From assembly GCA_944324875.1 (NCBI GenBank), contig CALUXZ010000002.1:1-33840 (forward strand): a DNA stretch of 33,840 nucleotides. The letters are read 5' to 3'. Made by a program: the position numbers and the translations under genes. Positions 14,464 through 27,278 of the stretch are shown one piece after another. The notes under the pieces are model-generated. The model ran no database searches. It had not been told where the DNA came from and worked only from the letters and a program-made list of their open reading frames with translations. This DNA is from Candidatus Gastranaerophilales bacterium (GTDB lineage Bacteria; Cyanobacteriota; Vampirovibrionia; Gastranaerophilales; Gastranaerophilaceae). Numbering within the stretch: position 1 is the stretch's first letter; every line of letters begins with the position of its first letter.

Positions 14464-15903
14464 ATGAAAGTAGCTGCTACAGGTAATACATACAGGTCTA
14501 TAAATTTTGGAAGAAGTTTAAATAAAACCGAAATGGACAACGCTTATAAGGTGTCTCTTGAGGCAAGAAATTTAATGGGGGCTCAAGATGGCAGAGGTGT
14601 TTTGTTTTTGCCTTCAGAAAGGTTACCGAAAGCACAAGAGGGTGTGGGCTTAACAGAGCAGTTGGAGAAATTTTTTGACAATGTAAAAAAACTTCTTGGT
14701 ATAAACACTGTTGAGATTACAGGTGCAGCAGATGAAGCTTCTGCGGCTTCCGTTAAAAATGCAATACAAGGTAGTGGACTGGAGCGCATGGGTCGTTTTG
14801 TAATCCCTCAAAATCGTGACGAACTTGAAAATGCCGTAGAGCAAGCAGCAAAAGAATTTGATGCTTTAAGAGTTATGACAAATGATGGAAATGTCAGTCT
14901 TGAAGATATCAACAAAATTGAAGAAACTTTTAAAAGAGTAAAGGGAGATGCATTTAAACCTTCAATGTTGATATATGAACATCAAGATAAGGCTTACGCT
15001 TGGGACCCTGACAGAATCAATGAAATGTATAAAGGCAGGGTAATTGTAGGCTCAAGTAATTATTTAAATGACAATGGCGGAGTTTTATGGGGTTCTAAAA
15101 GCTTTTTTACAGACAGAATGGGTGCAAAACAAGGAGAGTTTATTCATGGGCTAAGGAATGCTTTTGATAGCGATTTAGCTACACAAATGAGTGATGGGGG
15201 ACAAATAAACGCAGCCAGAAATCTGCTTGAAACAGAGTTAAAACTACAAGATGACGAGATTTTACATCCTGCAAGGTTTGCAGCTGCAAAAAGGGCTGAT
15301 GTTGTATTATCAAATAATTTTTATAAGCATTTTGATGACATTGCGCCTAAAATGTCATTAGACGTTGAAAATTTTGAAAAAATTTATCAGGAGGCCTTGC
15401 AACAAGGTAGTGGAGATAACTATTTTGATTCACTTGCAAAAGCACTAAAGTCTTTGGGTTTGGATAAAAGCAATCCTGATGTTTATGAGTCGGTCTGCAA
15501 GTATAGAAATGCGCTTTTTGCATCAGGTGCAAAAACCATGGAGGAAGCAGCAGCATTAACCGCACAGGAACTTGAATCTTCTTATAAAGATGTTTCAAAT
15601 GTTGTTTTACAAGGTGTCGAGATAAAAAGGAAGGCTCTTGAAGATGCTAAAAAACTTGCTGATTTTAAAGAACAACATAAGGAAATTTTAGAAGAGGGCA
15701 GGAAGCTTGGCGAGAATATGAATCCTCTTGATATTACACGTTTTGATAAATTTTTAAATTATGTAAGAAAATATAAAGTACAGTTTATAGTAGGCGCTGC
15801 ACTTGCTGCACTTGCAATAATAGGTGGTACAATGTATTCTTACGGTAAAGAAATTGCACAAAAGTCACAAGCTGCAAAGCCAAAGCCGGATAATATAGTT
15901 TAG
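14464..15903 (+). CDS. Large lineage-type protein of unknown function with C-terminal membrane anchor
   Basis: Not recognised. The 479-residue product has no signal peptide. The N-terminus carries YRSINFGRSLNKTE at about 10-23, a Phe-Gly motif I associate with Gastranaerophilales proteins. Residues about 60-380 are predicted soluble and mainly helical; about 385-425 are strongly charged and coiled-coil-like (IKRKALEDAKKLADFKEQHK). A single hydrophobic segment (about 439-459, VQFIVGAALAALAIIGGTMY) is followed by a basic tail KEIAQKSQAAKPKP, so it looks tail-anchored with the bulk on one face of the membrane. GGGGA precedes the ATG. The 3' end overlaps the convergent prepilin peptidase gene by 4 bases. 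Confidence 0.8.
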   Translation: MKVAATGNTYRSINFGRSLNKTEMDNAYKVSLEARNLMGAQDGRGVLFLPSERLPKAQEGVGLTEQLEKFFDNVKKLLGINTVEITGAADEASAASVKNAIQGSGLERMGRFVIPQNRDELENAVEQAAKEFDALRVMTNDGNVSLEDINKIEETFKRVKGDAFKPSMLIYEHQDKAYAWDPDRINEMYKGRVIVGSSNYLNDNGGVLWGSKSFFTDRMGAKQGEFIHGLRNAFDSDLATQMSDGGQINAARNLLETELKLQDDEILHPARFAAAKRADVVLSNNFYKHFDDIAPKMSLDVENFEKIYQEALQQGSGDNYFDSLAKALKSLGLDKSNPDVYESVCKYRNALFASGAKTMEEAAALTAQELESSYKDVSNVVLQGVEIKRKALEDAKKLADFKEQHKEILEEGRKLGENMNPLDITRFDKFLNYVRKYKVQFIVGAALAALAIIGGTMYSYGKEIAQKSQAAKPKPDNIV

Positions 15904-16835
15904 CTGAAAAAAACCAAGATTTTCTTTGCAAAAAATATTATAAAAAGCGCCCCTGTAACAAGAGCCGGTCCAAAAGGCAAGTAGCAAAAACTTTCTTGGC
16001 TTTTTATGTTTTTTAAAATAATTAAAAGACAAAAAAGTAAAACGGTGCATAAAATTGCAAGGTAAATTATATAATAATCAAAATTTGGGTTTGCAAATTT
16101 TGTTGAAATAATACATAGAACTATAAGTATAAGTGCAAATGCGCTTAAATAATTTTTGTTTTTAAAGTATTTAATAAATAATACAGGTATTGTAAAAATT
16201 GCCTGTATTAACATGCTTATAAAAATAGTTAATATTAGCATTTTCCAGCCTAAAAGTGCGCCTAAACCCATTGCAATGAGTGTGTCGCCTTCTCCAAAGG
16301 CTCTGGTTTTTACAGTAATTGTGCCTATGCGTGCTAAAATTTCAAAAATTAAATAACCTGCTAAAATCCCCAGAATACTGTCTAAAATGCTTATTGAACC
16401 GAGTTTTAAAATGTTATATAAAAGTCCTAAGCCAATTAAAATGTAAGTATGCAAGTCAATTATAACTTGCTCTTTAAAGTCTGTTATGCAAATTAAAATA
16501 AAGATTGATGTAACTGCCCATAAAATAAGGGTCTTAAGACTCACGCCAAAGTTTAAAAACATAATTAAATACAAAATTGCATTTGCGCTTTCAACAATGG
16601 GATATTGAACTGAAATCGGTTGTTTGCAAAATTGGCATTTACCAAGAAGAAAAATATAAGAAATTACAGGTATGTTTGTGTACCAGTTTAATTTTTTGCC
16701 GCATTTGGGGCATTTTGAAGGTGGAAAGACAATGCTTTCGCCGCTTAAGCCTCTAAGTGCGACAACATTTAAAAAACTGCCTATGCTAAGTCCTATAAGG
16801 ACTGCAAAAAAGCCATAAAGTGCTTCAATGCTCAT
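15900..16835 (-). CDS. pilD: Prepilin peptidase / N-methyltransferase (A24 family)
   Basis: Inner-membrane aspartic protease that cleaves and N-methylates type IV prepilins or pseudopilins. The 311-residue product has several membrane segments. The cytoplasmic N-terminal domain has the two CxxC pairs of the bifunctional enzyme (CPKCGKKLNWYTNIPVISYI and CQFCKQPIS). The catalytic Asp residues are in CITDFKEQVIIDLHTYI and in GEGDTLIAMGLGALLG. Its ATG lies 11 bases inside the 3' end of the sigma-factor gene, so the two are coupled. This implies a type IV pilus, secretion or competence system elsewhere in the genome. Confidence 0.94.
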   Translation of the reverse strand: MSIEALYGFFAVLIGLSIGSFLNVVALRGLSGESIVFPPSKCPKCGKKLNWYTNIPVISYIFLLGKCQFCKQPISVQYPIVESANAILYLIMFLNFGVSLKTLILWAVTSIFILICITDFKEQVIIDLHTYILIGLGLLYNILKLGSISILDSILGILAGYLIFEILARIGTITVKTRAFGEGDTLIAMGLGALLGWKMLILTIFISMLIQAIFTIPVLFIKYFKNKNYLSAFALILIVLCIISTKFANPNFDYYIIYLAILCTVLLFCLLIILKNIKSQESFCYLPFGPALVTGALFIIFFAKKILVFFS

Positions 16836-17643
16836 ATTTGTGCATGCCTTTTTTTGTAATTAAGTTAAAAAGCTTATCCAGTGCTTTTTTTAGCTTTCTT
16901 GAAACTTGCATTTGCGACATATCAAGCTTTTGAGATATTTCCCTCTGGTTTAAACCTTCAAAGTAATTTAAAATAATAAGCTGTTGTTCGTCATATTCTA
17001 ATTTTTTTATTGCTTCATTTAAAATAAGACGATTTTCAAAACTGGTTAGAATGTCTTTTTGACTTTCATCAATCAATCTGTCGCCAAGAGTTGATGTGCC
17101 GTTTTCTTCATTACCTAAAATTTGATCAATTGAAATAGCAGTTGTGCGCCTGTCAAGTTCATAGACTTCTTCTATTTTCTTTTCGCTCATTTGCAGTGCT
17201 TGCGCAAGTTCTTTATCAGATGGAGTTGTGCCTAACTTTTCCGTTAGCTCCATTGTAATTTTGTGCACACGATAAGAGAGTTCTTTTATCTCACGTGGCG
17301 CACGGATAATTGTGCTTTTATCTCTTAAATAATGGCGTATTTCACCTGTTATAAGATAAGTGGCATAAGTTTTAAAATTTGAACTAATTTCAGGCTTAAA
17401 AAGATCAATAGCTTTAATAAGCCCTAAAGCCCCAACTTGAGTAATGTCTTCAATAGGGTCGGTAGCACGACGGGCAAGCGAGCGTGCGACTTTTTTTACA
17501 AGCGGCATATAAGCAAGAACTATAAGCTCACGAAGATGTTTTTTTGTGGCTTCATCTTCAGTTGTCTTATATTCTTCAAGCCACTGAGAAACTCTATTTT
17601 CAAGGTCTATTGTATCATTAGTATTTAAGAATTCTTGTGTCAT
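16825..17643 (-). CDS. sigF: Group-3 sigma factor of the cyanobacterial SigF / SigB-SigF-SigG type
   Basis: Alternative sigma-70-family factor, 272 residues. Region 2 runs from about 45 to 115 (PLVKKVARSLARRATDPIED, then ITQVGALGLIKAIDLF and TYATYLITGEIRHYLRD). Region 3 follows (LGTTPSDKELAQALQMSEKK), and region 4 is at about 215-260 with the helix-turn-helix LNQREISQKLDMSQMQVSRK. The pattern LARRxTDPIED and FITGEIRHYLRDK-like region is that of cyanobacterial SigF, which in Synechocystis controls pilus genes and motility. Flagellar FliA is the closest alternative. The start follows the metG stop by 13 bases with a weak ribosome-binding site. The overlap with pilD supports a surface-motility role. 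Confidence 0.88.
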   Translation of the reverse strand: MTQEFLNTNDTIDLENRVSQWLEEYKTTEDEATKKHLRELIVLAYMPLVKKVARSLARRATDPIEDITQVGALGLIKAIDLFKPEISSNFKTYATYLITGEIRHYLRDKSTIIRAPREIKELSYRVHKITMELTEKLGTTPSDKELAQALQMSEKKIEEVYELDRRTTAISIDQILGNEENGTSTLGDRLIDESQKDILTSFENRLILNEAIKKLEYDEQQLIILNYFEGLNQREISQKLDMSQMQVSRKLKKALDKLFNLITKKGMHKYEH

Positions 17644-17656
17644 TTAAGTTTTCCGC

Positions 17657-19210
17657 TTATTTTTTTACTGCAAATTCTGAATCTAGTCTTAAAAATACAG
17701 GTTGAATTTCTGATTTTTCAATTAATTTACCTGTTTTAATCATTTTAGGTTTTAATTCATCAAGTTTCATATTAATATCAATTTTTAGCTGTTTAGCCAT
17801 ATTTGCCGCAATGTTTGGGCAATAAGGATAAATTAAAACTGCAACTTTTGTCATTAAATCAAAAATTGAATATAAAACCTCACCACATTCTTGCATTTTG
17901 CCTTCTTTTGCAAGTGTCCAAGGCGCATTGTCGTTTACAAATTTATTTGCTTCATCTACAAGAGAGATAATTTCCCCTGCAGCTTCCGCTAACTCTACTC
18001 TGTCAAAGTGGTCTTTAACTTTTTCAATTGTATCAATTGAGGTTTTTGTAAGTGAGTTTTCGCAAATGTGTTCTTCTAAAATATTACCGTCAAAATATTT
18101 GCATAACATATTTAAAGAACGGTTTAAAAGATTGCCCATGTTATTCGCTAAATCTGCATTTACACGCTCTTTAAAGTCTTCATCGGAATAATTTCCGTCT
18201 TTGCCCGAGGGTGCGCTAACACACATAAAATAACGGAAAGAATCGGGCTCTTTTAGTTCAAAAGCGTCCATAACGGTCTTTGGAGAGATAACGTTGCCGA
18301 TTGATTTTGACATTTTGTTTTTGTCAATTGTTATCCAGCCATGCGCATAAATTGTTTTAGGCAACTCAACTTCAAGTGCCATAAGTATTGCAATCCAATA
18401 AATTGAGTGAAATTTTAGGATGTCTTTACCTATAATTTGAAAATCAGCCGGCCAGAAAGTGTTGAATTTTTCATCGCTTTCACCGTTTGGATTGTAGCCT
18501 AAAGCTGTAATATAGTTGCTCAGCGCGTCAATCCATACGTAAATTACCTGTGTTGGGTCAGATTTTACTTCAATACCCCAGTTTACGTTTGTTTTAGCAC
18601 GAGAAACGGAGATATCTTCAATATTTTCAAGCTGGTTTAAAACTTCATTTGCCCTGAAGGCAGGCATGATAAAGTCGGGATTTTCCTTGATATGCTTAAT
18701 TATTGCGTCTTTGTATTTTGTTAATTTAAAAAAGTAATTTTCTTCGCTCACAAGTTCGGGCTTTTTACCGTGAATCGGGCAATTGCCGTTCTCATCAAGG
18801 TCTTTTGGACTTAAAAAGCTTTCGCAGCCGCTACAGTATAGACCTTCGTATTTGTGTTTATAAATATCACCTTTTTCAAGGAGTTTTTCAAAAATTTCCT
18901 GCACGATTTTTGTATGTTCTAAATCGGTTGTTCTTATGAATTTGTCGTAATTTATATCTAAAAGCGCCCATGAATCTTTAAATTTTTGAGAATTTTCATC
19001 GCACAATTCTTTTGGTGTAATGCCTAAAGTTGCGGCAGTTTTTTGTATTTTAATACCATGTTCATCTGTACCTGTTAGGAAAAATGCGCTGTCAGTTCTT
19101 TGTTTAAAGTGTCTGAAAAGTACATCTGTTAATATTTTCTCAAATGCATGACCTATGTGCGGAGCGCCGTTAACATAGTCTATTGCAGTTGTTACCATAA
19201 ATTTATTCAT
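17657..19210 (-). CDS. metG: Methionyl-tRNA synthetase
   Basis: Class I synthetase that charges tRNA-Met. The 517-residue product begins MNKFMVTTAIDYVNGAPHIG, so the HIGH motif is at about 18-22. A zinc knuckle follows (CSGCESFLSPKDLDENGNCP, then IHG). WIDALSNYITALGY and the KMSKS loop NKMSKSIGNVISP complete the catalytic core, and a helical anticodon-binding domain ends the protein. The C-terminal EMAP-like dimerisation domain of some MetRS is absent. ATG 19210 is preferred over the upstream ATG at 19246 because AGGA lies 8 bases upstream and family similarity begins there. Confidence 0.96.
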   Translation of the reverse strand: MNKFMVTTAIDYVNGAPHIGHAFEKILTDVLFRHFKQRTDSAFFLTGTDEHGIKIQKTAATLGITPKELCDENSQKFKDSWALLDINYDKFIRTTDLEHTKIVQEIFEKLLEKGDIYKHKYEGLYCSGCESFLSPKDLDENGNCPIHGKKPELVSEENYFFKLTKYKDAIIKHIKENPDFIMPAFRANEVLNQLENIEDISVSRAKTNVNWGIEVKSDPTQVIYVWIDALSNYITALGYNPNGESDEKFNTFWPADFQIIGKDILKFHSIYWIAILMALEVELPKTIYAHGWITIDKNKMSKSIGNVISPKTVMDAFELKEPDSFRYFMCVSAPSGKDGNYSDEDFKERVNADLANNMGNLLNRSLNMLCKYFDGNILEEHICENSLTKTSIDTIEKVKDHFDRVELAEAAGEIISLVDEANKFVNDNAPWTLAKEGKMQECGEVLYSIFDLMTKVAVLIYPYCPNIAANMAKQLKIDINMKLDELKPKMIKTGKLIEKSEIQPVFLRLDSEFAVKK

Positions 19211-19252
19211 AATTTTATTCCTGTTGTCTATATGAAAATTATACAATGAAGA

Positions 19253-20557
19253 TTAAAGTGCGTAAATAAGCTCTTTTGCGTATGGTTTAGATAAGCTTAT
19301 CTTAACTGCTTGATTAGCTGAATCTATTGCCTCATTTAGCTTTTCATCTTTTACATCATTGTAATACAGTGTTAGGAGAGTTTCTCCGTTTTTAATTTCA
19401 TCGCCTGTTTTTTTATTTAAAATGCAACCAGCGGCAGGGTCTATGCTGTCTGATTTTTTATCTCTGCCTGCACCTAAAAGCTTGCAGGCACGAGCTATTT
19501 TAAGTGCGTCAAGTTCTTCAATATAGCCATCTTTTTGTGCTTTTAGTTTATAAGAATTTTCTGCTTGTTTAAATAGAGTGTAATCATTTACTATATCAGG
19601 GTTTGCACCTTGGTAAGCGATGATTTTTTTAAATGTTTCAAGCGCAAGACCTGATTTAATAGCATTGTCAATTTTTTCTTTTGCTTCTTTTTTTGTTTTG
19701 CAAAAATCGCCCGCAATAAGCGTTTTTGCAGCTATTTCAAGAGTTACGTCATACAGGTCTTTTTGATAATTTCCTTTCAAAAATTCAATACTTTCAATAA
19801 TTTCAAGGCTGTTACCGATGTGTGTACCCAAAGGCTGTTCCATAGAGCTTATTATGGCGGATATTTTTCTGCCCAAAAGTGCGCCTGTTTCTATCATAAG
19901 CTGTGCAAGTTCACTTGCTTCTTCTTTTGTTTTAATAAATGCGCCCGAGCCGTATTTAACATCCAGAACTATTGAATTTGCGCCGCTTGCAATTTTTTTG
20001 GATACAACAGAAGCGCAAATTAAAGACTTATTGTCAACCGTTGCGGTTACATCTCTAAGTGCGTATATTTTGCCGTCAGCCGGAGTTAAATTTGGACTTT
20101 GAGAGGATATTGCAGCGTTTATGTCCTTAATTTGTTTCATAAACTCATCTTTTGACATTTCGCATTTAAAATTAGGTATAGATTCAAGCTTGTCAACAGT
20201 TCCACCTGTATAGCCTAACCCTCTGCCTGATAATTTAGCGCAAGTTACTCCAAGACTTGCTAAAAGTGGTATAAGAACAATTGTTACTTTGTCGCCAACA
20301 CCTCCTGTAGAGTGCTTATCCGCAACAAAATTACTTATATGGGAAAAATCCAATACTTCGCCAGAATCTACAAAAGCCTGTGTCATCCATGCGGTTTCTT
20401 CTTTATCAAGTCCGCAAAAACATACTGCCATAAGCCAAGCAGACATTTGATAATCTTCAACTTCGCCTTTTGTGTATCCGTTAACTAAAAAATATATTTC
20501 TTCTTTTGTATGTTTTTTGCCTTCTTTTTTCTTTTGTATTAAGTCAACAGTTCTCAT
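19253..20557 (-). CDS. pdp: Pyrimidine-nucleoside (thymidine) phosphorylase
   Basis: Cleaves thymidine, deoxyuridine or uridine with phosphate to free base and (deoxy)ribose-1-phosphate; pyrimidine salvage. It has 434 residues, the family length. It starts MRTVDLIQKKKEGKKHTKEE, and the phosphate-binding loop reads DKHSTGGVGDKVTIVL. The family signature is KLSGRGLGYTGGTVDKLESI, followed by RDVTATVDNKSLICASVVSKK and DVKYGSGAFIK. GGAG lies 6 bases upstream. The sequence does not separate pdp from deoA with certainty. The start lies 8 bases after the rlmH stop. Confidence 0.93.
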   Translation of the reverse strand: MRTVDLIQKKKEGKKHTKEEIYFLVNGYTKGEVEDYQMSAWLMAVCFCGLDKEETAWMTQAFVDSGEVLDFSHISNFVADKHSTGGVGDKVTIVLIPLLASLGVTCAKLSGRGLGYTGGTVDKLESIPNFKCEMSKDEFMKQIKDINAAISSQSPNLTPADGKIYALRDVTATVDNKSLICASVVSKKIASGANSIVLDVKYGSGAFIKTKEEASELAQLMIETGALLGRKISAIISSMEQPLGTHIGNSLEIIESIEFLKGNYQKDLYDVTLEIAAKTLIAGDFCKTKKEAKEKIDNAIKSGLALETFKKIIAYQGANPDIVNDYTLFKQAENSYKLKAQKDGYIEELDALKIARACKLLGAGRDKKSDSIDPAAGCILNKKTGDEIKNGETLLTLYYNDVKDEKLNEAIDSANQAVKISLSKPYAKELIYAL

Positions 20558-22530: not shown

Positions 22531-24189
22531 ATGTTCAAGCAGAAAACTTCGGATAATTCTTTTAAAGGTTCAAAAAATGAGCCAAATAATTCAATGCAGC
22601 TGGCGCAAGCTGCACATCAAAGGTATCTTCTGCATTCTTCATCCGAAGATTTAACAACAGCAATAAATTATTATATAGAAGCTCTTAAAAATAACCCTGA
22701 TACCCCGAGTGCTTATTTCAGGCTTGCAAGTCTTTTACACGACAATGGACAAATAGGGATAGAATCAGCTATTGAACAGTGTAGAAAAGCTGTTGAAATA
22801 GATTCAAAAAATCCTAATGCGCACATGTATTTAGGGTATTTTTTGTCTTTAAAAGGTGATTTTGAAGATGCTAAGGAGCAATTTAAAACAGCAATTAAAT
22901 TAAATCCCTTGAAATCCTCAAGAACAAGGCTTGTTCTGGCATTAACTTTATTGGAAAAAGGCAGGATAAATAAAAATTCTTTTAGTGATTTCACTTGTGC
23001 ACTTTATTACATTTTCTCGGGCTCTGTTTTATTCTTCTTTGATAAAGCAAGTGTTAAGATGTTTTTTAAAAATGTTTTAGACGATATAAGTTTTATTAAA
23101 TATAGGGCTTTTGGCGAAATTTTAGAGAAAACAAATCAAGATAAAAATGCCTACAGTCTGTATGCTGATGCTTTAGATAAAACAAGAAATAAATCTGTTT
23201 TTTATGAGAGAATGGCACAAATTGCCAAAAAGAAAAAACGCTATGATGTGGCTCTTGAGTGTTATCAAAATTCTGTAGTGCTTTCTAATTCTAATCCGAT
23301 GAGAGTTGTAAGTGCTATTGAATTTGTCGAGGAATTTTATCCTGAAAAAACTGATGAGTTAATTGATTTATATACTATTTTAACAAGTCAAAATCCTAAC
23401 TTGCCAAGATGTTATTATGAGTTGGGACATTTATATCTTAAAAAAGAAGATAAATTTAATGCTGTAAATGCTTTTAAGCTTGCACTTCAATATGATAATG
23501 ATAATCCGTTTTACTTAAATGCGCTTGCATTTTCTTATGTTCAACTTGAACAATACGATAGCGCAATAGAATTGTATCAAAAAGCTTTAAGTATAAACCC
23601 TGATAATGAATGGTCAGCAGTTGTTGCTCAAGCTTTAGCTGCAATTTATCATCAAATAAAAGGCAATTCTGATGCAGCTATTTCAATGTTACAAAATGCG
23701 CTTCTTTTAACAAAAGAAAAATCTCAAATTTATCAAGCTATTGCAGATATTTATTATGACTTGGAAGATTTAGACAAAGCAATCGAATATTACAATTCTT
23801 CGCTTGATGGTGATTGCAATAATCCAAAAGCATATTCTCGCCTTGCTATGGCATATTGGGAAAAAGATTACATCGAAAAAGCAATTATTTATTATTCAAA
23901 AGCAATTGATTTAGATCCTGAATACGATATTGCATACAATAATTTGGGTGTAATATTTTTAGATGGTCTGGGGGACGCTAAGCGTGCGCTTTCTTATTTT
24001 GAAAATGCAGTTGATATAAATCCAAATTATGTCCTTGCACATTTTAACATTGGTAGAGCTTATGAAACCATGGGACAAAAAATTGATGCTGCAAAAAATT
24101 ATCAAGTTGCCCTTAATTTAAATAAGATTAATCCCGAAGTAGACTCTCAGATGATTGAAGATATGCTCTTTAAACTATTTGAAGCATAA
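22531..24189 (+). CDS. TPR-repeat protein, cytosolic
   Basis: A 552-residue protein made mostly of tetratricopeptide repeats, which form superhelical surfaces for binding other proteins. Typical units include AYFRLASLLHDNGQIGIESA, AHMYLGYFLSLKGDFEDAKE, NPFYLNALAFSYVQLEQYDS and AYNNLGVIFLDGLGDAKRAL. There is no signal peptide; an aromatic hydrophobic stretch near 160-180 (FTCALYYIFSGSVLFFFDKA) breaks the repeat array. The N-terminus MFKQKTSDNSFKGSKNE is polar, with a Phe-Lys-Gly motif. AAGGGA precedes the ATG by 8 bases. It is followed at 11 bases by a second TPR gene and then a diguanylate cyclase, so it is probably part of one signalling module. Confidence 0.88.
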   Translation: MFKQKTSDNSFKGSKNEPNNSMQLAQAAHQRYLLHSSSEDLTTAINYYIEALKNNPDTPSAYFRLASLLHDNGQIGIESAIEQCRKAVEIDSKNPNAHMYLGYFLSLKGDFEDAKEQFKTAIKLNPLKSSRTRLVLALTLLEKGRINKNSFSDFTCALYYIFSGSVLFFFDKASVKMFFKNVLDDISFIKYRAFGEILEKTNQDKNAYSLYADALDKTRNKSVFYERMAQIAKKKKRYDVALECYQNSVVLSNSNPMRVVSAIEFVEEFYPEKTDELIDLYTILTSQNPNLPRCYYELGHLYLKKEDKFNAVNAFKLALQYDNDNPFYLNALAFSYVQLEQYDSAIELYQKALSINPDNEWSAVVAQALAAIYHQIKGNSDAAISMLQNALLLTKEKSQIYQAIADIYYDLEDLDKAIEYYNSSLDGDCNNPKAYSRLAMAYWEKDYIEKAIIYYSKAIDLDPEYDIAYNNLGVIFLDGLGDAKRALSYFENAVDINPNYVLAHFNIGRAYETMGQKIDAAKNYQVALNLNKINPEVDSQMIEDMLFKLFEA

Positions 24190-24200
24190 TAAATTGCCTT

Positions 24201-25280
24201 ATGAAAAAAATTCTTGAATTTTTTAAAAACACAACAGTTAGAATTATAAGCATTTTATTGCTTGTGTTATTTTTAGCGAGTATTTTTTTATTCTTTGATG
24301 TTTATGTCGAACAAGTTAAAAAGGGTGTAAGCTTTTATTGGGTTTACAGGGGTGATAAGTACTACAAAAAAAATAAAACCCAAAGAGCAATTGACTGCTA
24401 TAAAAAAGCACTTGAATATTATCCTGATCACTACAGGGCAAGATATAATCTTGCAAATATATATGTAGTGTATGAAGATTACTATAGTGCACTTGAACAG
24501 TATGCTCGTACACTTGAAATAAAACCCGATTTTATGATAGCCAGAATTGACTATGCTCTTGTTCTATCAAGTGCGACATTTAATCATGACAGAGCAATAG
24601 AACAATATAAAAAAGCAATAGAGAAAAAACCAAAGTGGGTTTATATACCTTTTTTTATAAACAACAGAAAAACATATAAATATAATACAGGAATCGCCTA
24701 TTACAATATGGGTCTTGCATATCGTGCAAAGTCTTTACTTGTGGGAGAAAATAAGTTTTCTGCCCGTCAATATTTATATAGTGCTGTTGAAGCCTATAAA
24801 AAAGCACTTAAAAATATAAAAAGCTATGAAATTTATTATAATTTAGGGCTTGCCAATCAGCTTTTGAAAAATAATGAAGAAGCGGGGGTTAATTATTGCA
24901 AGGCGATTGAGCTTGCGCCATTAAGATATGAAGCTCACTATAATCTTGCACTTTTATTAAGGGATATGAAATTATACAGAGATTCGCTTGAAGAATTTAA
25001 AAAAGCAGGATTGATACTTGATATTGACGGTGAAAGTACCAAAACACGCTATATATATGATGTTTTATCGGATGTTACTCAAAAAATGGTTCAACAGGGT
25101 GATTATAAATATTTAGTCGAACATATTGATGAAAGGGGACATAAAGAAGGTTATAATCAGGCAGAGTTGACTTATGTAGGCGGTAAGCTTGTTGTAAGTG
25201 AAGAATTTGACCGTGCTGTATTAAAAAATTTCAGGACATGTTCTGCAAAAGTTCATTTTAAAACCATTAATGAGGATTAA
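24201..25280 (+). CDS. Membrane-anchored TPR protein
   Basis: 359 residues. One N-terminal membrane segment (about 14-33, RIISILLLVLFLASIFLFFD) is followed by at least five TPR units, for example AIDCYKKALEYYPDHYRARY, ALEQYARTLEIKPDFMIARI, and YEIYYNLGLANQLLKNNEEA. The last 80 residues leave the repeat pattern. With a short basic N-terminus and a long following part, the TPR domain is probably periplasmic, though orientation is an inference. The start is 11 bases after the preceding TPR gene, without a strong ribosome-binding site. It may relay an envelope signal to the cyclase encoded 3 bases downstream. Confidence 0.86.
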   Translation: MKKILEFFKNTTVRIISILLLVLFLASIFLFFDVYVEQVKKGVSFYWVYRGDKYYKKNKTQRAIDCYKKALEYYPDHYRARYNLANIYVVYEDYYSALEQYARTLEIKPDFMIARIDYALVLSSATFNHDRAIEQYKKAIEKKPKWVYIPFFINNRKTYKYNTGIAYYNMGLAYRAKSLLVGENKFSARQYLYSAVEAYKKALKNIKSYEIYYNLGLANQLLKNNEEAGVNYCKAIELAPLRYEAHYNLALLLRDMKLYRDSLEEFKKAGLILDIDGESTKTRYIYDVLSDVTQKMVQQGDYKYLVEHIDERGHKEGYNQAELTYVGGKLVVSEEFDRAVLKNFRTCSAKVHFKTINED

Positions 25281-25283
25281 AAA

Positions 25284-26669
25284 ATGGATTATAAAACATT
25301 TTATAATTTTATGTTAAAACTTACTCTGGCTTTTGAAAAATCAAAATGCAGAAGGGAATTTATAAGCGGTCTTGAAACAGCATTTTCAAAAGTTTTACAG
25401 GTTGAATGCATCAAAATTTATACGCTGGATGAATTTTCATATACAATTAAAGATTTTGAAAAACCTTGGGAAAGTATTTCTGATAATCAAGAGCATTGCA
25501 AACTGCAAGAAGTTTTAAATTCTTTTGTTGGTTCTAAAGATTGTGCAAAACTTGATGAAAATATCATCTATATTCCTATTTTTGACGATACAAAAATAAT
25601 TGGTTTGTTAAAAATTATTTTGGATAAAAAAATTAAACCCGAAAATGACTTTTTTGAAATTGCTCAACTTGTACAAAAACAAATTTCTTATGCTGTTTTA
25701 AACTTTAAATCCGGCGAGAAAATGAAACTTAATACAAAATTTTATCAAACAATCAGAAATATAGCGAAAATTATTGAAACTCAGTACGAATTGAGCTACA
25801 TTTTGCCTATTTTGGGCGAAATGATAGACAGTTTTATTTATGAGCATTTAATTTATATTTTTATAAAAAATAAAAATAAAAAAGAATTTAAACTTGTTTG
25901 GCCTGCAAACATCAAAGATGTAAAAATATACGAATATCTTGAAAATCTTACCCCAAAATCAGGTGTAATCCTTGAGCGAGAGGGAAAAATAGGAATATTT
26001 CCATTATTAAGTGAACAGAAACTTTTGGGCGCAGTTGTGGCATACAATCCTTTTGATAAATTAAATGAAAATGAAATAAATTATCTTGATGAAATTTCAA
26101 AACAGGCGTCAATTACAATTGAGCGTGCCGGTGAGTATATGAAAATTTTAAAAGATGCCACACTGGATGCACTCACCGGTCTTAATAATCGTCATCAGTT
26201 TGCGCTGAGGTTAAGAGAAGAAACTGCAAGTGCAAAACGACAAAATACTCCTTTGTGTTGCATCATGACTGATATTGATTTCTTTAAAAAGGTAAATGAT
26301 ACCTATGGGCACGCAGTAGGTGATTGTGTATTAAAAAATGTTGCCCGTACTATAAAGAAAGAGTTAAGAGAAAACGATATCCCCTCACGCTACGGTGGGG
26401 AGGAATTTGCGATACTTTTGCCCCATACAACACTTGATGAGGCACAACTTGTCGCACAAAGATTAAGGGCAGCAATAGAAAAGAAAAAAATTAATATTGA
26501 AGAATATGGTATTGAAGACATTAAACAACTGAATGTTACAATATCTGTAGGTGTGAGCTTGTATGACAAAAAAATGAAAGAGCCGCAGCAGCTTTATCAA
26601 AATGCTGACAAAGCACTATATCAAGCAAAAGAAAGTGGCAGAAACAAAGTTGTTGTGTTTTGCGAATAA
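25284..26669 (+). CDS. Diguanylate cyclase with GAF-like sensor region
   Basis: Makes c-di-GMP from two GTP. Of 461 residues, about 291-460 form a complete GGDEF domain: DALTGLNNRHQF, DIDFFKKVNDTYGHAVGD, and the active-site loop SRYGGEEFAILLP (GGEEF at 371-375). An inhibitory I-site RxxD (REND, 362-365) is correctly placed five residues before GGEEF, so product feedback is expected. Residues about 1-135 and 150-285 look like two GAF-type modules (for example IIYIPIFDDTKIIGLLKIIL and GIFPLLSEQKLLGAVVAYNP), followed by a helical linker into the GGDEF. There is no membrane segment. It is the third gene of the TPR-TPR-cyclase operon. Confidence 0.93.
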   Translation: MDYKTFYNFMLKLTLAFEKSKCRREFISGLETAFSKVLQVECIKIYTLDEFSYTIKDFEKPWESISDNQEHCKLQEVLNSFVGSKDCAKLDENIIYIPIFDDTKIIGLLKIILDKKIKPENDFFEIAQLVQKQISYAVLNFKSGEKMKLNTKFYQTIRNIAKIIETQYELSYILPILGEMIDSFIYEHLIYIFIKNKNKKEFKLVWPANIKDVKIYEYLENLTPKSGVILEREGKIGIFPLLSEQKLLGAVVAYNPFDKLNENEINYLDEISKQASITIERAGEYMKILKDATLDALTGLNNRHQFALRLREETASAKRQNTPLCCIMTDIDFFKKVNDTYGHAVGDCVLKNVARTIKKELRENDIPSRYGGEEFAILLPHTTLDEAQLVAQRLRAAIEKKKINIEEYGIEDIKQLNVTISVGVSLYDKKMKEPQQLYQNADKALYQAKESGRNKVVVFCE

Positions 26670-26785: not shown

Positions 26786-27022
26786 ATGTTAAGAACAAAA
26801 TCAAAACAATCTTATCTTAAAAAAGCCGTGAAGGTCAGACATCATGGCAGGCTTTATTTTGTAAATAAAGCAAAGTTAAGCTTTGTACTGTCTAAAATAG
26901 GTGTGTGCAAAAAGTTTGATTTTTTAAATGAAAATTTAAAAGATTTTTTATCTAAAAATAAGCTTTTGTATACAGAGTTTTTGCACCATGTAAGCGACAG
27001 CGTAAAAGTGTTTGATAAATAG
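26786..27022 (+). CDS. Small basic protein of unknown function
   Basis: Not recognised. The 78-residue product is Lys-rich (MLRTKSKQSYLKKAVKVRHH, then GRLYFVNKAKLSFVL) with a predicted pI well above 9 and no membrane segment. The basic N-terminal third suggests nucleic-acid or ribosome binding, but no family motif is visible. GAGG at 26776-26779 lies 6 bases upstream of the ATG, which supports translation. It follows the c-di-GMP module by 116 bases and may be under separate control through the inverted repeat at 26712-26781. Confidence 0.6.
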   Translation: MLRTKSKQSYLKKAVKVRHHGRLYFVNKAKLSFVLSKIGVCKKFDFLNENLKDFLSKNKLLYTEFLHHVSDSVKVFDK

Positions 27023-27278
27023 CAGATACGAATAATATTTATAGTTTTATTGTGTGATGAACAAATTATGTTTGTTGCAAGTTTTTATACGTAGTTTTTC
27101 GAATATTAAGTTTTGTTTCAAAAATTTTATACATGGTGTTACAAAATTACTTTTTGAATATAATGGTAGGGCAAAATTAAATAGTACTTTTGGATTATTT
27201 TTTAACTTGAAAGGATTTGAAATTATCTTTGTGCTAAGATTTTGCATGTATGGTAGTAAGTATTAAAGGAATTTAAAA
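27023..27278. other. AT-rich intergenic region before glgP
   Basis: 256 bases with no convincing gene. It holds a small hairpin AACAAA-TTATG-TTTGTT (27060-27076) without a proper T-run, a TATAAT at 27159-27164 lacking a good -35, and the candidate glgP promoter near 27232. Small frames on both strands here have no ribosome-binding sites. A non-coding RNA is possible but unsupported. Confidence 0.4.
27232..27240 (+). promoter_or_regulatory. Candidate extended -10 of glgP
   Basis: TGCTAAGAT reads as TGN-TAAGAT, an extended -10 element, 39 bases before the glgP ATG. The -35 region is poor. AAAGGA (about 27265-27270) is the ribosome-binding site. Confidence 0.35.

Follow-up and report, generated by a model that had tools for sequence, protein, structure and literature searches.

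A membrane-anchored TPR protein gene paired with a diguanylate cyclase gene in Gastranaerophilales: a partly conserved candidate module of c-di-GMP signaling

The stretch of DNA analyzed here, referred to as the window, comprises 33,840 nucleotides and is contig 2 (CALUXZ010000002.1) of a 1.34-Mb, 76%-complete genome of Candidatus Gastranaerophilales, an order of gut bacteria (assembly GCA_944324875.1). It contains three adjacent genes encoding two tetratricopeptide repeat (TPR) proteins and a diguanylate cyclase, named TPR1, TPR2 and DGC. In line with the original prediction, the list of open reading frames (ORFs) in the window places all three on the plus strand with gaps of 11 and 3 bases, while Pfam and hydropathy confirm that they encode, in this order, a soluble TPR protein, a membrane-anchored TPR protein and a GAF-like/GGDEF cyclase (Table 1). 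Peak hydropathy over 19 residues is 1.32 in TPR1, 2.81 in TPR2 (from residue 13) and 1.45 in DGC, so that among the three proteins only TPR2 has a membrane segment and the cyclase, as had been proposed, has none. A scan gave 27 promoter- and terminator-like sites against 28.5 expected, hence no excess, and we infer a single transcript from the spacing. As detailed below, the locus is best filed as a real, partly conserved module, that is, a lineage-specific variant of TPR-linked cyclic di-GMP (c-di-GMP) signaling or cyclase control.

Table 1. Features of the TPR1-TPR2-DGC locus (positions in the window; identities are means relative to the window sequence)
Feature	Position	Strand	Description
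TPR1	22531..24189	+	552 aa, soluble, all-TPR; Pfam TPR families; order-wide ortholog
TPR2	24201..25280	+	359 aa; N-terminal membrane segment, TPR superhelix, C-terminal non-TPR tail; Pfam TPR families
TPR2 membrane segment	24237..24293	+	residues 13-31; hydropathy 2.81; helix 11-30 in predicted model
DGC	25284..26669	+	461 aa, soluble GAF-GAF-GGDEF diguanylate cyclase
DGC first GAF-like domain	25350..25658	+	residues 23-125; model elements; 27% identity, poorly conserved
DGC second GAF-like domain	25791..26045	+	residues 170-254; 54% identity, well conserved
DGC GGDEF domain	26157..26648	+	Pfam GGDEF; 65% identity
DGC I-site RxxD	26367..26378	+	residues 362-365
DGC active-site motif GGEEF	26394..26408	+	residues 371-375

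Judging from its sequence, DGC is a soluble cyclase whose catalytic and feedback motifs are both intact, and it is probably active. Pfam recognizes its GGDEF domain at 2.2e-49 and a GAF domain barely past the cut-off (23.6 vs 22.4 bits). Both the active site and the I-site are intact, as originally claimed, and they are kept among the 84 collected orthologs, 83 of which display GGEEF and one GGEEI, with RxxD present in all 84. These 84 proteins, as well as the 61 gene-pair spacings discussed below, pool the two genome sets that we used, duplicates included; the cyclase set A2 omits one paralogous GGDEF protein in L156 and a partial cyclase (371 aa) in L149. Conservation increases along the chain (Table 1), and a conserved motif, QYELxYIxPxxGE, begins just ahead of the second GAF-like domain and extends into it. 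An AlphaFold model of DGC (40 sequences; mean predicted local distance difference test 85, predicted template modeling score 0.51) exhibits two α/β domains, which we read as GAF-like from the model elements, long signaling helices and the GGDEF domain. In this succession of sensory domains, long helix and GGDEF, the model resembles GAF/phytochrome-type cyclases such as PDB 5llw from Idiomarina. The similarity is modest, the best whole-chain fold matches being phytochrome-type cyclases with template modeling scores of only 0.38-0.48 and 15-17% identity. No TPR family in Pfam matches the DGC chain. In one genome (G025, locus L039), a stop codon interrupts the cyclase ORF (247 + 229 aa), which might reflect a pseudogene or an assembly error.

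Conservation was assessed in 58 genomes of relatives, the window's own included, and in the best 80 of 360 confirmed named loci, for which proportions thus describe the nearest ones; the two sets overlap partly (e.g., L143 and G012) and are not additive. With DGC orthology set at E 7e-58 or better, TPR2 is found in 56 of the 58 genomes, TPR1 in 57 and a DGC ortholog in 44. The exact trio occurs in 16 genomes, namely all 15 of the window's genus (in G003, the cyclase is split over two contigs) and G016 of a sister genus. TPR2 and DGC are directly adjacent in 26 genomes (26/56 of those with TPR2), and in four more (G040, G041, G043 and G045) HDOD lies between them, alone or together with one other gene, while in G035 the same TPR2, HDOD and DGC parts are located at contig ends. 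The 80 named loci consist of 37 with TPR2-DGC, 15 of which have TPR1 in front, three with TPR2-HDOD-DGC, 39 without a cyclase next door and one at a contig end. At the 61 places collected, the gap between the paired genes ranges from -56 to +82 bases and is mostly below 12. Mapped onto a tree of 124 TPR2 sequences, adjacency switches only three times, against an average of 41.6 switches after label shuffling. For this tree, identical tails were merged, contig-terminal TPR2 of the named loci and TPR2 no longer than 300 aa were excluded, and linkage meant within two genes, which scores G041 and G043 (HDOD plus one more gene in between) as unlinked. Recurrent tight spacing and few label changes together indicate that the pairing is above chance. 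TPR2-DGC, which in outgroup families takes the form TPR2-HDOD-DGC, is the older unit. The idea of the trio as a relay system from the envelope to c-di-GMP thus stands only in part: a soluble, probably active cyclase is tightly and conservedly paired with TPR2 across deep divergence, but a conserved three-gene unit is ruled out, the trio being confined to one genus and a sister clade. Judged by the refutation criterion originally set, TPR1 does not pass, as it occurs mainly without the cyclase (linked in 16 of 57 genomes), while TPR2 adjoins it directly, or lies within one or two genes of it, in about half of the cases.

Our tentative explanation is a c-di-GMP writer module in which TPR2 and DGC would serve a single process and TPR1 would be an adaptor added to them. 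Several observations weigh against it. Of the 44 DGC-bearing genomes, 13 show no linkage of DGC with TPR2, and one more is broken by a contig end; the 13 are eight of the window's family, four of family f6, and G038, in which no TPR2 was found. In eight of the 13, DGC sits among the housekeeping genes yebC-tsaE-tsaB (tsaE not seen in G028). In addition to the 39 named loci in which the cyclase does not adjoin TPR2, one clade of 45 TPR2 tips has the pair split, and TPR2 persists without a DGC ortholog in family f3, G018, G034 and G037 (the TPR2 of G052 and the weak cyclase matches in most f3 genomes were counted as unlinked by contig numbers alone). Similarly, TPR1 is unlinked in 41 of the 57 genomes having it, a count that includes contigs ending near the gene and, by contig numbers alone, G052, G032, G050, G055 and G056.

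The split clade and the unlinked TPR1 would also fit mere cohabitation, in which unrelated housekeeping-like genes share a transcript by chance and stay neighbors by descent in small stable genomes. Consistent with this, the other neighbors of DGC or TPR2 are housekeeping genes, gyrB according to Pfam, and yebC, tsaE, tsaB and pyrG according to our own reading (the names YebC, TsaE, TsaB, GatC, PyrG, Cdd, thymidine phosphorylase and LysS come from this reading, not from database calls). However, in linked lineages the TPR2-DGC pair outlasts the turnover of other flanking genes, since it stays while the genes upstream of TPR2 vary among G016, G017, G019, G022, G026, G029, G030 and G033. The tight or overlapping spacing of the pair argues against cohabitation as well, as does the recurrence of HDOD with TPR2, and we consider this explanation unlikely, albeit a serious one. 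A match between linkage and flagella in family f1, where the pair is linked in 21/21 DGC-bearing genomes with flagellin but in 4/12 without (Fisher 3.6e-5), was rejected as proof because the eight unlinked genomes fall in one clade, maybe through a single event, and because f6 genomes with flagellin (G039, G044 and G050) are unlinked.

The last counterpoint comes from TPR2 itself. This protein defines an order-specific, single-copy family, with matches in 279 of the 382 class genomes. Of the 103 misses, the 20 listed comprise seven genomes from the same taxonomic family and 13 that belong to the class but not to the order; among the listed genomes of the class, no relative outside the order reached E 1e-30. 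Neither TPR2 nor TPR1 passes the cut-off of an NCBIfam equivalog (MamA, PilW, LapB and others) among the matches listed, which for TPR1 are 25 of 39. The TPR2 set A3 draws on the window's protein and on 41 of the 80 from the named loci. Of 135 sequences, 83 have more lysine and arginine residues ahead of the membrane segment than behind it, 31 have equal numbers and 21 have fewer, the means being 3.4 vs 2.5. One cysteine is invariant (124/124), and a cysteine is found within the last 50 residues in every sequence (124/124). This charge bias and the conserved cysteines may lean to a TPR domain outside the cytoplasm. With its repeats facing outwards, TPR2 would be unable to hold the cyclase directly and its link to DGC would be indirect, so that any direct contact would depend on the topology of TPR2. 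TPR2 might then work outside the cytoplasm, as a TPR protein for assembling the envelope or an appendage, with DGC co-expressed to signal to the same process and never touching it. The order-wide distribution of TPR2, more widespread than DGC (56 vs 44 of 58 genomes), fits this view as do the positive-inside lean and the cysteines, but the charge difference is small and the flank behind the membrane segment is positive too, which leaves it a doubtful alternative to the writer module.

As for TPR1, it adjoins TPR2/DGC in only 16 of the 57 genomes having it and is elsewhere usually a lone gene, so that it joined the TPR2-DGC pair late. Counting by hand, we find a PilZ gene with a TPR1 paralog immediately downstream in 29 of 57 genomes, all 29 of which have flagellin, and a phmmer search of the locus adds one such pair in G029. 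In G000 (contig 11), about 20 bases separate the PilZ gene from a 530-aa paralog behind it (L129:9073-11267). When eight TPR1-paralog loci were searched with phmmer, a PilZ relative was found in six and none in two (G016 and G021). A second but loose association of TPR1 with a cyclase is seen in G042 (L124:3389-7438), in which a different, 645-aa GGDEF gene is located 451 bases behind TPR1.

The HDOD protein, which exhibits a resolvase-like N terminus, has its gene next to TPR2 and DGC or between the two in families f2, f4, f6 and f7 (e.g., L054:6475-7698); its full-length form was not found in f1. In four genomes (G037, G039, G044 and G050), it adjoins TPR2 with no DGC there, which suggests that the association of TPR2 with c-di-GMP extends beyond this cyclase. 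The TPR2-HDOD-gatC-pyrG-cdd arrangement of G037 (L082) corresponds to that of G043 (L057), which has the cyclase in the middle, and is a clean natural loss of the cyclase relative to G043. In family f3, TPR2 is kept and an HDOD protein of this kind is present in all members studied here, with no DGC ortholog. A broader and improbable proposal would be a TPR-scaffolded c-di-GMP hub, in which lineage-specific TPR proteins each have a partner gene, namely a writer for TPR2 (DGC), a probable reader again for TPR2 (HDOD) and a PilZ reader for the TPR1 paralog, so that superhelices rather than fused domains would provide each c-di-GMP component with its place and partner.

The genus is equipped for c-di-GMP signaling. 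GGDEF, HD_5 and PilZ genes are present in its 15 genomes, with 7-9, 7-9 and 2-3 matches per genome, respectively, while EAL is found in none of the 15. Two close GGDEF genes lie on contig 14 of G000 (15209-19406, L068), the second of which has an HD_5 match in the same frame and is a probable writer-eraser fusion. Flagellin is encoded in 43 of the 58 genomes, including the window's, in which one PilZ gene lies right after a flhA-like gene (FlhA is a name that we gave from its match to FHIPEP). According to an earlier report, complete flagellar gene sets occur in only three of nine Gastranaerophilales genomes (PMC4040986). Among our 58 genomes, the first of two full-length FHIPEP (FlhA-type) classes (~860-890 bits) is missing from the flagellin-less genomes listed, the second (~670-730 bits) is found in nearly all genomes, flagellin-less ones included, and a half-length relative (~490 aa) is also widespread. 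Downstream of DGC, a small ORF of ~78 aa (window ~26787-27200) precedes a phosphorylase gene and has relatives (families F11 or F35) at the equivalent position in eight of the other 14 genomes of the genus. In the literature searched on Gastranaerophilales and Melainabacteria we found, judging from the listings, no study of c-di-GMP in these bacteria.

It had been suggested that no named system with this exact composition is known. This is fair, but close functional precedents exist. In Vibrio vulnificus, RcbA is a TPR protein encoded in the same operon as RcbB, and TPRs control cyclase activity and polar placement (PMC12282931). The RcbAB operon resembles our locus in combining TPR protein and diguanylate cyclase in adjoining genes. 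It differs in that RcbB carries TPRs and GGDEF on one chain, giving two genes instead of three chains, and in that our locus adds GAF domains in the cyclase and a membrane TPR protein. Membership in RcbAB is ruled out since the cyclase chain has no TPR domain of its own. In that system, the TPR part of RcbB represses its own cyclase and RcbA relieves the repression (PMC12282931), and a switch of this type could be spread over three chains, with TPR-TPR contacts restraining the cyclase and TPR1 freeing it. We regard this as very improbable, in view of the missing TPR match in the cyclase, the extra membrane-anchored TPR protein and the position of TPR1 outside the older unit. In Pseudomonas aeruginosa, FimV, which has TPRs on its cytosolic part, binds the cyclase DgcP (PMC7033161). 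Much as TPR2 might, this single-pass membrane protein recruits a cyclase to a cell site. However, FimV is a 924-aa protein with a periplasmic LysM and cytosolic TPRs, while the much shorter TPR2 has an N-terminal anchor and an uncertain topology; the position of its membrane segment (Table 1) and the absence of any LysM or FimV match in Pfam rule out membership in FimV/HubP. Finally, SadB, an HDOD-domain protein of Pseudomonas fluorescens, binds c-di-GMP and controls flagella, and the cyclase AdrA acts with it (PMC6543031), which is reminiscent of the HDOD-DGC neighbors in outgroup families. In SadB, a YbaK-like domain rather than a resolvase-like one lies beside HDOD, and no TPR protein is described with it.

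For the writer module that we favor, we infer one transcript, a shared process and local c-di-GMP. TPR2 would mark or assemble a membrane site, for which DGC would make c-di-GMP as one local pool, gated by its own GAF domains and by product inhibition. TPR1 would be a soluble adaptor co-expressed with the pair in this lineage, and may dock DGC or partners. The output would most likely be motility or surface behavior via PilZ proteins, with HD-GYP-type enzymes as candidate erasers. Natural variants, in which the pair is split, the cyclase deleted, HDOD inserted or TPR1 added, make this hypothesis testable. If TPR2 and DGC do cooperate, this non-photosynthetic relative of cyanobacteria would offer an order-wide case in which separate TPR chains, and not fused sensor domains, set the c-di-GMP output.

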